A DNA stretch of 64,000 nucleotides, taken from a bacterium (GTDB lineage Bacteria > Desulfobacterota > Deferrisomatia > Deferrisomatales > Deferrisomataceae). The stretch is taken from assembly GCA_027021615.1 (NCBI GenBank), contig JALUTY010000004.1:1-64000 (forward strand), given 5' to 3'. The position numbers and the translations under genes were made by a program. Below, in pieces: positions 25,828 to 47,912 of the stretch (position 1 is the first letter of the stretch; every line of letters begins with the position of its first letter). The notes below the pieces were generated by a model that did not search any database, was not told where the DNA came from, and worked only from the letters and a program-made list of their open reading frames with translations.

Positions 25828-26931
25828 GTGAAGGGGGTGTTCTTTTCGTTCTGGGTGTTCGTCTGGTTGGGGGGGATGGCCGGCGCCGCGGTCTTGGACC
25901 CGGCCCTGTACGTGGGCAGCGAGCGGTGCCGCGGCTGCCATCCCAAGAAGTACCAGGGGTGGAGCAAGACGTTTCACGCCACCGTGGTGCAGGACGCGAA
26001 GAAGAACCCGGACGCAGTGCTCGGGGACTTCTCCGTGCCGAACCTGGGCTTCACGCTCGAGGACGTGGAGTTCACCATCGGCGGGCACTGGCAACAGCGG
26101 TACATGAAGAAGATCGGCGACGACTACTACGTGTTGCCCAAGCTGTGGAGTGTGCAGTCCCAGAAGTGGCAGGCGTACAACGTGTGGTCGTGGCGAAAGA
26201 TGCCGTACGGAAAGTACTGCAAGGGGTGCCACGTGACCGGGTTCGATCCGGCCCGGGGGGAGGCGGTGGAGCCCCGGATCGGATGCGAGGCGTGCCACGG
26301 CCCCGGCCGGGCCCATGCCGAGGCCGAGGGGGCCGGGCAGATCGTGAACCCGAAGAGGCTGCCCGAGGAGCGGCGCGACATGATCTGTGCTGCCTGCCAC
26401 GTGCGGGGGACCGATCCGTCCAAGACGTACTACTTCCCGGTCGGCTTCATGCCCGGGGACGATCTGGGCGAGCACTACGTGCCCAACGGCAAGGCCCCCG
26501 ACGAGTCCAACGCCGAGGCGATCCGGCGGGCATTCGCCAAATGGAAGAAGAAGCGAGAGGAGGGGGCCAAGCTCAAGTGCGACGTGTGCGGGATCCCCGG
26601 CGTGGCCGAGGAGCGGGACCAGGAGAAGGTGGACTCGATGCTGGAGTTCTGCTTCGGGTGCCACGGGTTCAAGAACAAGTACGCGGAGCACACGCGGCAC
26701 CCGGCGAGCGTCGGGTTGATGTGCTTCGACTGCCACGTGCAGCAGACGAAGGAGATCATGAACCCGGGCACCCAGGACATCCACTCCTACGGCTACTTCC
26801 TCGTGCACAAGGAGAAGTGTTACGACCCGGAGATTTACAAGGCCTGCGTCAAGTGCCACGGGGACAAGGGGCCGGAGTGGGCCCGCCGCACGGTGGAGTC
26901 GTGGGGCAAGCCGGTGGAGCTGGACCACTAG
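25828..26931 (+). CDS. seven-haem c-type cytochrome (c554-like)
   Basis: The 367-residue secreted protein has a short signal peptide and seven CXXCH motifs (CRGCH, CKGCH, CEACH, CAACH, CFGCH, CFDCH, CVKCH). An extra CDVCG lacks His and would not bind haem in the usual way. The layout SERCRGCHPKKYQGWSKTFHA is typical of cytochrome c554-like multihaem proteins in metal-reducing bacteria. GTG start after AGGAGGTG. Its stop shares a CTAG palindrome with the convergent gene. Confidence 0.93.
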   Translation: MKGVFFSFWVFVWLGGMAGAAVLDPALYVGSERCRGCHPKKYQGWSKTFHATVVQDAKKNPDAVLGDFSVPNLGFTLEDVEFTIGGHWQQRYMKKIGDDYYVLPKLWSVQSQKWQAYNVWSWRKMPYGKYCKGCHVTGFDPARGEAVEPRIGCEACHGPGRAHAEAEGAGQIVNPKRLPEERRDMICAACHVRGTDPSKTYYFPVGFMPGDDLGEHYVPNGKAPDESNAEAIRRAFAKWKKKREEGAKLKCDVCGIPGVAEERDQEKVDSMLEFCFGCHGFKNKYAEHTRHPASVGLMCFDCHVQQTKEIMNPGTQDIHSYGYFLVHKEKCYDPEIYKACVKCHGDKGPEWARRTVESWGKPVELDH

Positions 26932-44529: not shown

Positions 44530-46428
44530 ATGCGCAAACGAGTGCTCATCGTGGACGACGATCCGGGCACCCAGGATCTCCTGGTCGAGATGCTGGCCGA
44601 CATCGAGGGGGTCGAGGTGGAGGCGATGACCGCCTCCACGGATGAGGAGGGGTACCACCGGTTTCTGGAGGCCGGGCCGGATCTGATGCTCCTGGACCTC
44701 TTGCTTCCGCGGAAGGGAGGCATGCCTCTCCTCCGGCGCATCCGGGAGCTGCGGGGGGGCCGGGAGGCTGCGGTCATCGTGATGAGCGCGGTGTTCCGGG
44801 AAGGGGACGCCCGCACGGAGGCCGTGGGGAAGCTGGGTGCCCTGGACTTTTTCCGCAAGCCGTTCCATCTGCCCACGGTGAGGGCTCGGCTGCGGCAGGT
44901 CCTGGTTCCCCCGGAGGGTCAGACCCGGGTCGAGCCCCTGTTCGGGGGTGGGAAGGCTCCGGCTCGGGACGGGAGCCTGGCAGCGGTGGATCTGCCGGTG
45001 GTCCTTCGCAACCTCGGCCGGGCGGACGGTACGGTGTGCCTCGATCTGAAGGTGGGCCGCGTCCGGAAGACCTTGTTCCTCCGGGACGGCAAGGTGGTGT
45101 TCGCGTTGTCCAACCGCCTGGCCGACACCCTGAGCCGGTTCCTCCTGGCCGAAGGGGTGATCGACGAGGACACCTACCGGGACGGCCTGATGGCCATGAA
45201 GGAGCAGGGGCGCCGGATGGGGGAGCATCTGGTAGCGGAGGGGGTGCTACATCCTGACGCCCTTCACGGCGCCCTGCGGCAGAACCTGTGGCAGAAGTGC
45301 CTCGATGTGTTTTCGTGGACAGAAGGGGAGTTCCGGATCGGCCCCTTCCGCCCCCCACCCACCGAGATTCCCGGTCCTCCGTTCGAGGTGGACCGGTTGG
45401 TGTGGGAGGGGGTCCTGGCGGTGTATCCCTTCGATCGGATCACGGCCGCCCTGGCCCCTTACGAGACCCTGCCCATGGGGCTGCGGGGGGACCTGTTCGA
45501 TCTGGCCGCCCGGGTCAGCCTGGAGCGGGACCACCTGCAGTTCCTCCACCTGGTCCGCCGCCGCAGCGGCGAGAGCCTGGGACGGATCCTTGCGGACGCC
45601 CAGGGGGAGAACGAGGTCCGGATCCTGTACTACCTGCTCGTGTACGGCTACCTGGGGGTGGCGGACGCCGGAGGAGGGGGGCTGGACCTGACCGAGTTCG
45701 AGAGGGTCCGACGGGCCCGGAAGGAGCTGGATGCCCTGCGGCGCCGAAACTACTTCCAGGTGCTGGGGGTGGGGATCACCGACAGCGACGAGGCGGTCCG
45801 GCGGGCTTACCTCCAAAGGGCCAAGGACTACCACCCCGATGTCCTGTCACCCAGCGAGCCCCCGGCTCTCCGGGGGATCTATGGGGAGATCTTTCGGCTG
45901 GTCCAGACCGCGTACGACGCCGTCAAGACCGAGACCCGACGGGAGGAGTACCTGCGATTCCTGCAGGGGGGAGAGGCCGAGGTAAAGGATGCCTCGGACA
46001 TCCTCGCGGCCGAGGCCAGGTTTCAGGAGGGGCGCCTCCTCCTGCGTCGCAGACAGTGGCACGAAGCGGCTCGGGCCTTTGAGGAAGCCCTGTCCGTGAA
46101 CCCGGACGAGGGAGAGTACGTGCTCCACCTCGGGCTCGCCCGGCTGCGCCAGGCCGTGTCGGGGCGGGAAGGGGCCCTGGCCGAGGCCAAGGACCTGTTC
46201 CGACGTGCCGCCGAGCTGCTGCCCGGGGCGCCGGAGCCGTGGTTCCGGCTGGGTCGTTTGGCGGCCCTGGAGGGGAGGCAGGACGAGGCACGCCGGTGCT
46301 TTCAGGAGGCTCTGCGGCGGGACCCTCGCCACACCGACGCCCTGCGGGAGCTTCGGCGGATGGACCAGACGGTGGAGAAGCGTCGGGGCAAAGGACTTGT
46401 GAACCTGTTTTGGAGGAGCTCGAGATGA
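44530..46428 (+). CDS. response regulator fused to DUF4388-like, J and TPR domains
   Basis: The 632-residue protein joins a receiver domain (1-125; Asp56), a DUF4388-type region (about 145-270: LPVVLRNLGRADGTVCLDL, then MKEQGRRMGEHLVAEGVL), a J domain (about 408-470, with HPD at 435-437), and TPR units (about 490-620). Receiver plus DUF4388 proteins are linked to cell polarity or surface behaviour. A J domain would recruit DnaK. Its stop overlaps the selenoprotein start as ATGA, so the two are translated together. Confidence 0.88.
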   Translation: MRKRVLIVDDDPGTQDLLVEMLADIEGVEVEAMTASTDEEGYHRFLEAGPDLMLLDLLLPRKGGMPLLRRIRELRGGREAAVIVMSAVFREGDARTEAVGKLGALDFFRKPFHLPTVRARLRQVLVPPEGQTRVEPLFGGGKAPARDGSLAAVDLPVVLRNLGRADGTVCLDLKVGRVRKTLFLRDGKVVFALSNRLADTLSRFLLAEGVIDEDTYRDGLMAMKEQGRRMGEHLVAEGVLHPDALHGALRQNLWQKCLDVFSWTEGEFRIGPFRPPPTEIPGPPFEVDRLVWEGVLAVYPFDRITAALAPYETLPMGLRGDLFDLAARVSLERDHLQFLHLVRRRSGESLGRILADAQGENEVRILYYLLVYGYLGVADAGGGGLDLTEFERVRRARKELDALRRRNYFQVLGVGITDSDEAVRRAYLQRAKDYHPDVLSPSEPPALRGIYGEIFRLVQTAYDAVKTETRREEYLRFLQGGEAEVKDASDILAAEARFQEGRLLLRRRQWHEAARAFEEALSVNPDEGEYVLHLGLARLRQAVSGREGALAEAKDLFRRAAELLPGAPEPWFRLGRLAALEGRQDEARRCFQEALRRDPRHTDALRELRRMDQTVEKRRGKGLVNLFWRSSR

Positions 46429-47912
46429 TGCAGCAGGCCCGGACGGCGATGCGGTGGGTGTGGGGGGCTGCGGTGATGTGCCTTCTCGGCGGCGGGCTGG
46501 GGGGGGACATCGCCGCAGCCGAGCCCCGGCTGGGGCTCGCCTACACGGCGGGGGTGCGGGGTGAGATCGAACCCTGCGGGTGAAAGAGCGGCCGGTTCGG
46601 GGGTCTGGCCCGAAGAGCCGCCAAGATCAAGGACCTACGGGAAGCGCTGGATCTCCTGTACCTGGACGGGGGGGACGCCCTGTTCCGGACCTTTCCGGTG
46701 CCCGATGGGGCGGCCGGTCGCCCGATCCGGGAGCGCGCGGCCCTGATCGCGCGGGTGATGGTGTACGCAGGCGTGGCTGCCGCGAACGTCGGCCGCCTTG
46801 ATCTGGCCGCGGGTCTGGGGTTCCTGGAGGCCCTAGCCGCGGGCGAAAGGGTGCCCTGGGTCACGGCGAACCTGGAGACCCGGGACGGCCGTCGGCCGTT
46901 CCCCGGGTGGCGAGCGGTCCGCTGGGGAGGGCTGCAGGTGGGAGTGGTGGGGGTGACCCGGCCCGAGCCCGACCAGGACCGACGGCTCGGGATCCGGGTG
47001 ACCGATCCGGTCGAGACCCTGGCCAGGGTGCTTCCGGAGATCTCGGCCCAGGGCGTAGACGCGGTGGTGCTCCTGTCGAATCTGGGGCTCGAAAGGGAGA
47101 AGGAGCTGGCCCGGCGGTACCCCCAGATTCGGCTCATCGTGGGGGGCGGGACCTATCCCTATCTGCCCGAGCCTCCGGTGGTGGGGGGCACGGTGATCCT
47201 CCACGCCGGCGACCGGGGCCGGTTCCTGGGCGTGCTGGAGACCGATGCCGCCAGCCTGCGGGAGTGGTCCGCCCCGGTGAACCGCGACCAAGAGGGGGTG
47301 TGGACGGCGCGGCTGGCCTCGGCCGAGGCCCGGCTCCGCAAGGCTTCCCCCGACACGGCCCGGGCCGTGCTCAACGCATGGAACCGCCAGGCCGCGGCAG
47401 CCCGGGCCGCCCTGGAGCGCATCCGGACCTCGAAGGTGTGGTTCACCCACCGGATCGTGCCGCTTTCGCCCGACGTGGCCGAGATCCCAGAGGTGGCCTC
47501 CTGGGTGCGTCGGGTGACGGGCCGCCCATCGCCGGGCGCCGGTTCCCCGCAGCGTCCGGGGCAGGCCACGCACACCGGCTCGGCAGGGTGCCGGGGGTGC
47601 CACCCCAAGGTGTACCGATGGTGGGTATCCACCCGTCATGCCCGGGCCTACGGGCCCCTGCGGGGGAAGCGGCCCGACCCCCGGTGCCTGGGGTGCCACG
47701 CCACCCGCGTGGTCCGGGCCACAGGAGCCTCCACCGAGCCCGCCGTGGGGTGTGAGGCGTGCCACGGCCCGGGCGCCAAGCATCGGGGGGCCGGCAACAT
47801 CGTAGGGGTACCGCCACCTGCGACCTGCCGGCGCTGCCACCGCGGGTACCACCCGAACGAGGTCTTCGACGAGGAGGCGGCGAGGACGAAGATCCGCTGC
47901 CCAAAAGGCTAG
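46425..47912 (+). CDS. probable selenoprotein: metallophosphatase-like, four-haem cytochrome
   Basis: The frame runs from ATG 46425 to TAG 47910 and is open apart from one TGA (46581-46583, codon 53). The context reads GEIEPCG-TGA-KSGRFGGLARR. As I recall, homologues in this UshA-like family have PCGC-xxGxxGGLARR, so UGA replaces the second Cys. Reading it as Sec gives 495 residues: signal peptide (to about 32), the PCG-Sec motif, a metallophosphatase-like core (LDGGDAL, TANLETRDG), then a c554-like tail with four CXXCH (CRGCH, CLGCH, CEACH, CRRCH). The selenium genes must lie elsewhere. The alternative is a recent nonsense mutation. Confidence 0.85.
46581..46621 (+). promoter_or_regulatory. 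SECIS-like element downstream of the in-frame UGA
   Basis: After the UGA, GCGGC (46588-46592) pairs with 46617-46621, and the upper stem TTCGGG/CCCGAA (46596-46601 with 46609-46614) carries a 7-base loop, GGTCTGG. Counting U of UGA as 1, U17, G23 and U24 are the same bases that are essential in the E. coli fdhF SECIS. The CGGUU and GGUCUG segments also match it. This would recruit SelB. Confidence 0.8.

Follow-up and report, generated by a model that had tools for sequence, protein, structure and literature searches.

An UshA-like tetrahaem protein with a predicted Cys-Gly-Sec motif and a degenerate phosphatase site in a member of the Deferrisomataceae

Probable selenoprotein gene and its family

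The stretch of DNA analysed here (64,000 nucleotides, hereafter the window) contains, on the plus strand at positions 46425–47912, a gene in which an in-frame UGA very probably encodes selenocysteine (Sec). The gene appears to code for a genuine selenoprotein of an already described family, and belongs to a clade whose members mostly score below the family cut-off and have a degenerate phosphatase site. Sec at residue 53, as proposed in the preliminary description, is strongly supported by the features found: the UGA occupies a column that holds Cys or Sec in nearly all relatives, a predicted SECIS hairpin with pairing and codon bias above the synonymous null lies directly 3' of it, and the host encodes tRNA-Sec, SelA, SelB, and SelD.

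Translation with TGA read as U gave a complete coding sequence of 495 residues plus stop. The only internal TGA is located at 46581–46583 (residue 53; context GEIEPCGUKSGRFGGLARR), which confirms the earlier observation of one frame broken by this codon alone. According to the sequence and the alignments of relatives, the Cys-Gly-Sec motif is encoded by TGC GGG TGA (46575–46583, plus strand). Under translation table 11 the frame falls into two ORFs, 46239–46583 and 46698–47912, so that a standard gene caller would split the gene and lose its N-terminus, as had been foreseen. This N-terminus is signal-peptide-like (residues 1–32, MMQQARTAMRWVWGAAVMCLLGGGLGGDIAAA; 46425–46520, plus strand) and ends near AAAEP; residues 2–23 were modelled as a helix, and a similar stretch occurs in the orthologue from genome G002. 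Candidate start codons are located at 46425, 46428, and 46449. We infer that the protein is secreted (periplasmic).

The best family match was NCBIfam NF041198 (UshA_like_PCGU, 'UshA-like (seleno)protein'; 1.3e-78), which covered residues 31–476. The score of 264.9 bits in hmmscan (255.4 in the genome search) is below the curated equivalog cut-off of 275 bits; the window protein is a close sub-threshold relative, and its Sec would go unnoticed if NF041198 were the sole basis of annotation. Most members of the window-type clade of this order reach ~231–267 bits on the model, with one member passing at 280 (L017), so that annotation relying on it would truncate most of these genes. The broader description of UshA-like CxU selenoproteins fits the window protein, which has PCGU within an UshA-like fold and CXXCH haem motifs after it. 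Both the Sec reading and the assignment to the UshA-like PCGU family can be proposed with high confidence.

The initial impression that a PCG-Sec form had not been described does not hold. Besides being the subject of NF041198, the UshA-like CxU selenoprotein (COG0737) was listed in 2008 in a paper on 76 selenoproteins in ocean samples (PMC2398784) and appears in later reviews (PMC9312934; PMC13188914). The 2008 paper counts UshA-like as one of a small number of major families that lack a conserved redox motif based on Cys (PMC2398784). The family is thus catalogued, yet no known function was found for it.

In a midpoint-rooted FastTree phylogeny, the topology of which was printed without support values, the window gene grouped with relatives from the same order, apart from a second PCGU paralogue of the same genome (C67:31552-32829) and from a third clade with UGA. 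This third clade was observed in the same order in genomes G004, G005, and G007 (L163, L165, and L166) and is marked by ICGUAQNPLGG or a similar motif. The Cys sequences from Electronema and L033 nested among UGA forms. A 16-CXXCH multihaem protein is encoded within ~2 kb of the second paralogue (L039, L074).

Conservation of the UGA column

The window's own genome and relatives in its phylum, 148 genomes in total, were searched with NF041198, and almost all of the best matches read with one TGA. The column is covered in 30 fetched proteins, counting the window protein itself and its paralogue; UGA is found in 28 of them, Cys in L033, and Arg in L013. All 20 further relatives have UGA as well; this second set was taken from the TGA rows of the search and gives no independent estimate of UGA frequency. 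Pooled with that reservation, 48/50 same-phylum relatives have UGA, one has Cys, and the remaining one has neither. In this last relative, L013 of genome G119, the motif reads PSGR (Ser replaces the first Cys and Arg the UGA), and the loop GGT codon described below is also gone.

For the public genome collection, a single protein used as a query gave no match. Search patterns could not be derived from the 25-sequence alignment, which was too divergent; two were taken from a 9-sequence alignment, one containing PCGCK and the other located in the haem domain. Of the 32 profile matches that span the column, 22 have Cys and 10 have UGA; the presence of PCGCK in one of the patterns biases part of this set towards Cys. 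The matches come from Candidatus Electronema, Marinimicrobia, Pyxidicoccus, Planctomycetota, and Acidobacteria, among others, and Cys is found in homologues from cable bacteria, Marinimicrobia, myxobacteria, and planctomycetes. Cys or UGA thus occupies this column in nearly all homologues, as required by the alignment check proposed in the preliminary description.

The same TGA is present in G002, an independent genome from the same genus that consists of a single contig; its orthologue shares 92% protein identity. Together with the occupancy of this column by UGA in dozens of relatives, this shows that the TGA is no sequencing error. Several variants were also observed. Two haem-less members, L035 and L038 (G077 and G041), have SGU in place of CGU, with UGA kept and the partner Cys lost. 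PCGC tetrahaem homologues without UGA occur in Planctomycetota and Phycisphaerae (L134, L151, L129, L100, L102, L111, and others).

Codon constraint, SECIS-like hairpin, and Sec machinery

Codons 54–91 would be untranslated if UGA acted as a stop. Comparison with the G002 orthologue revealed one nonsynonymous change in ~82 sites and three synonymous changes in this segment (dN 0.012, dS 0.10). The dS of 0.10 compares with 0.24 in the rest of the gene, a difference based on small numbers that is in keeping with an RNA constraint on the segment.

A predicted bacterial SECIS apical hairpin (46596–46614, plus strand; TTCGGG-GGTCTGG-CCCGAA) begins 15 nt after the first UGA base. It has a GGUC-type apical loop, similar to the GGUCU loop in the fdhF SECIS of E. 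coli. The stem of the window gene forms 6/6 pairs (p 0.017 against synonymous recoding). The loop Gly codon is GGT in 36/37 UGA genes, compared with 16% GGT among the Gly codons of those genes, and in 20/20 further UGA genes (background ~19%), i.e. in 56/57 overall, counts that are inflated by kinship among the sequences; GGT is found in 3/5 Cys genes examined. Stem pairing averaged 5.36 of 6 in UGA genes versus 3.84 under synonymous redrawing of codons, likewise inflated by kinship and computed with two UGA genes (L162 and L083) counted among the Cys genes, an assignment corrected in the GGT counts. For the 48 nt that follow UGA, MFE z-scores were mostly weak, the codon and stem tests being more informative. 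The hairpin may thus be described as SECIS-like, and it adds support for readthrough with Sec.

A search of the genome for selA, selB, selC, and selD revealed all four. The tRNA-Sec gene is located at C9:17450 (72.6 bits; tRNA-SeC with anticodon tca according to ARAGORN), and selA (4e-175), selB (2e-100), and selD (2e-106; G000:C78:237566-238486, L055) were identified. The selD gene contains one in-frame TGA, and SelD is therefore probably itself a selenoprotein.

UshA-like domain with a degenerate active site

Alignments and the structure model assign approximately residues 34–275 (46524–47249, plus strand) to an UshA/SoxB-like metallophosphatase fold. An AlphaFold model based on the 25-sequence alignment had a mean pLDDT of 82.9, with high values over most of residues 60–360 and low confidence at residues 53–55 and in the haem region. 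Foldseek matches in the PDB were 5'-nucleotidases (UshA), CD73, and SoxB, with E values of about 1e-18 to 1e-16. The metallophosphatase-like core of the preliminary description is thus retained as far as the fold is concerned, but not with respect to the catalytic residues. Aligned to active enzymes, the window protein displays TAGVR for TNDTH, GRLD for GNHE, SNLG for SHLG, and GGGTY for GGHSH, so that the GNH motif and the DxH, SHxG, and GGHxH ligands are missing and the Asp of GD (GGD) is the sole active-site residue kept. With the register set by the spacing of the conserved G, D, and G, the catalytic His of GNH is absent from 25/25 aligned members, and L038 alone retains the Asn. Individual metal ligands are still present in some members, namely Asp at column 43, His at 219, and His at 242.

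The residues that are invariant or nearly so include CGU, the following GGL, GxxD, and further glycines; the GG after the motif is invariant. The CGU loop comes right after strand 36–41 (beta-1), and we take the end of the corresponding strand to bear the DxH ligands in active enzymes. The absence of catalytic residues despite the fold match makes phosphoesterase activity unlikely, and the domain is probably a scaffold without this chemistry, that is, a pseudo-phosphoesterase.

Haem domain

The C-terminal part is a cytochrome c554-like tetrahaem domain (47589–47840, plus strand), which matched PF13435 (cytochrome c554) at 2e-06 and 29.1 bits, above the Pfam gathering cut-off of 20.8. The four CXXCH motifs reported initially were located at residues 389, 421, 443, and 468 (47589–47603, 47685–47699, 47751–47765, and 47826–47840), and all four are invariant in the 9-sequence clade alignment. 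The family profile matched cytochrome c554 (1bvb) at 4.5e-16 and other multihaem structures; weak matches to the multihaem selenoprotein MccSep were also obtained. Another CXXCH-containing region with a weak match to the haem part of NF041198 is located in the window at 25903–26421.

Shorter, haem-less members of ~330 aa were also found (L020, L028, L029, and the Pyxidicoccus forms L096 and L099). Most lineages thus have the haems, but some do not. In the neighbourhoods that were read, several of these members had no CXXCH gene next door, so that the CGU/C core can do without covalently bound haems.

Gene neighbourhood

The first ATG (46425) overlaps the stop codon of the upstream gene (44530–46428, plus strand) in the sequence ATGA, which suggests a single transcript. 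As judged from domains read by eye, the upstream gene codes for a protein with a response-regulator receiver, a J-domain, and TPR-like repeats, and a related gene occurs in the same order (L060, L061, and L063). The two genes are likely co-transcribed, and a functional link between them is putative.

Comparison of the neighbourhoods of relatives across lineages, with gene assignments read by eye, revealed no consistent or universal partner gene. RarA-like ATPase and DHH-phosphatase-like neighbours were seen in Desulfobulbia-type genomes, and aldehyde ferredoxin oxidoreductase-like neighbours in G024, G096, and G061. Genes of molybdopterin, 4Fe-4S, and NrfD-like proteins were located nearby in G090 and G119 only; the respiratory complex that they may encode is a lead only as to function.

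Possible function

In the mechanism that we propose, SelB and Sec-tRNA would read the UGA via the hairpin, and the exported protein would no longer act as a phosphoesterase. Cys51-Gly-Sec53 would lie in a flexible loop right after beta-1, at the place where active relatives anchor the metal centre, and would form a selenenylsulfide/selenolthiol redox couple, with the attached haems carrying electrons between this couple and periplasmic cytochromes. We consider this redox-couple mechanism moderately probable. The protein would most likely be a periplasmic thiol- or chalcogen-type oxidoreductase, with a sulfur species, a selenium species, or a protein disulfide as candidate substrates. A redox enzyme rather than a hydrolase is suggested by the near-invariance of CGU and the invariant GG, combined with the loss of the GNH His from all 25 members. 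The SGU forms L035 and L038, and L013 with neither residue, indicate that the Cys-Sec pair is not absolutely required.

Sec53 could instead be a ligand to a metal or haem in the former metal-centre scaffold. The motif borders the former metal site, individual metal ligands persist in some members, and the SGU members have no partner Cys; we nevertheless regard this role as unlikely, because CxU/CxC is the classic thiol-redox pattern and the metal ligands are poorly conserved compared with the nearly invariant CGU. Still less probable is a dedicated thiol- or haem-handling factor for cytochrome c maturation in place of a respiratory or detoxifying oxidoreductase. Such a factor would agree with a thiol couple that is presumed to be periplasmic, in a genome rich in CXXCH-containing frames, and with the lack of a conserved respiratory partner gene in the neighbourhoods compared, but the protein bears haems itself, and inspection by eye of the neighbourhoods covered revealed no ccm or dsb linkage. 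An active metallophosphoesterase, 5'-nucleotidase, or SoxB-type hydrolase with an auxiliary Sec, as the sequence and fold likeness to UshA, CD73, and SoxB might imply, is very improbable in view of the GNH His missing throughout the alignment and of the DxH, SHxG, and GGHxH residues also missing from the window protein. A nonsense mutation, pseudogene, or sequencing error that turned an ancestral Cys codon (TGC/TGT) into TGA, with the downstream part made from an internal start, would fit the GTG at 46698 that opens a 404-aa ORF and the TGC of some homologues, but is already largely refuted by the same UGA in a second genome of the genus and across dozens of genera, the strong conservation upstream and in codons 54–91, the SECIS-like hairpin with its non-random GGT, and the full Sec machinery.

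The redox-couple mechanism offers a testable structural idea, namely that a Cys-Gly-Sec redox loop took the place of a phosphatase site and that haems serve as its electron outlet. The PCGC versions from Planctomycetota, Myxococcota, and cable bacteria are Sec-free candidates for expression in ordinary hosts. On a wider scale, and only tentatively, a dead phosphoesterase fold may have become a widespread periplasmic selenenylsulfide redox enzyme that has its own tetrahaem relay and extends, in Cys form, to Myxococcota and Planctomycetota; its reaction could be new in respiratory sulfur/selenium chemistry.

Comparison with known systems

The window protein resembles the 5'-nucleotidases UshA and CD73 and SoxB in the fold and sequence of its N-terminal domain. 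It differs from them in the loss of the catalytic His and most metal ligands and in its C-terminal domain, and no CGU was present at the aligned place in the structures displayed. The multihaem cytochrome selenoproteins ExtKL and MccSep likewise join Sec to multihaem c-type cytochromes, but the match is weak and confined to the haem parts, with no UshA-like domain seen in those matches.

UshA-like selenoprotein family 2 (NF049981) is also UshA-like and Sec-containing, and weakly matches residues 37–89 of the window protein (1.5e-10). In contrast to PCGU, its reported motif is CxxU (PMC13188914), and the window protein scores 40.9 against a cut-off of 140. Similar CxxU spacing (CPTU/CPSU) was observed in L031, L032, and L034 (G147, G018, and G055).

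The second paralogue of the same genome shares with the window gene PCGU, the SECIS-like GGT codon, and four CXXCH motifs, but belongs to a separate clade of the tree and, once its pieces are joined, exceeds the NF041198 cut-off with 327 bits. As in the window protein, NF041198 combines PCGU, an UshA-like N-terminal fold, and a C-terminal haem domain in one profile.
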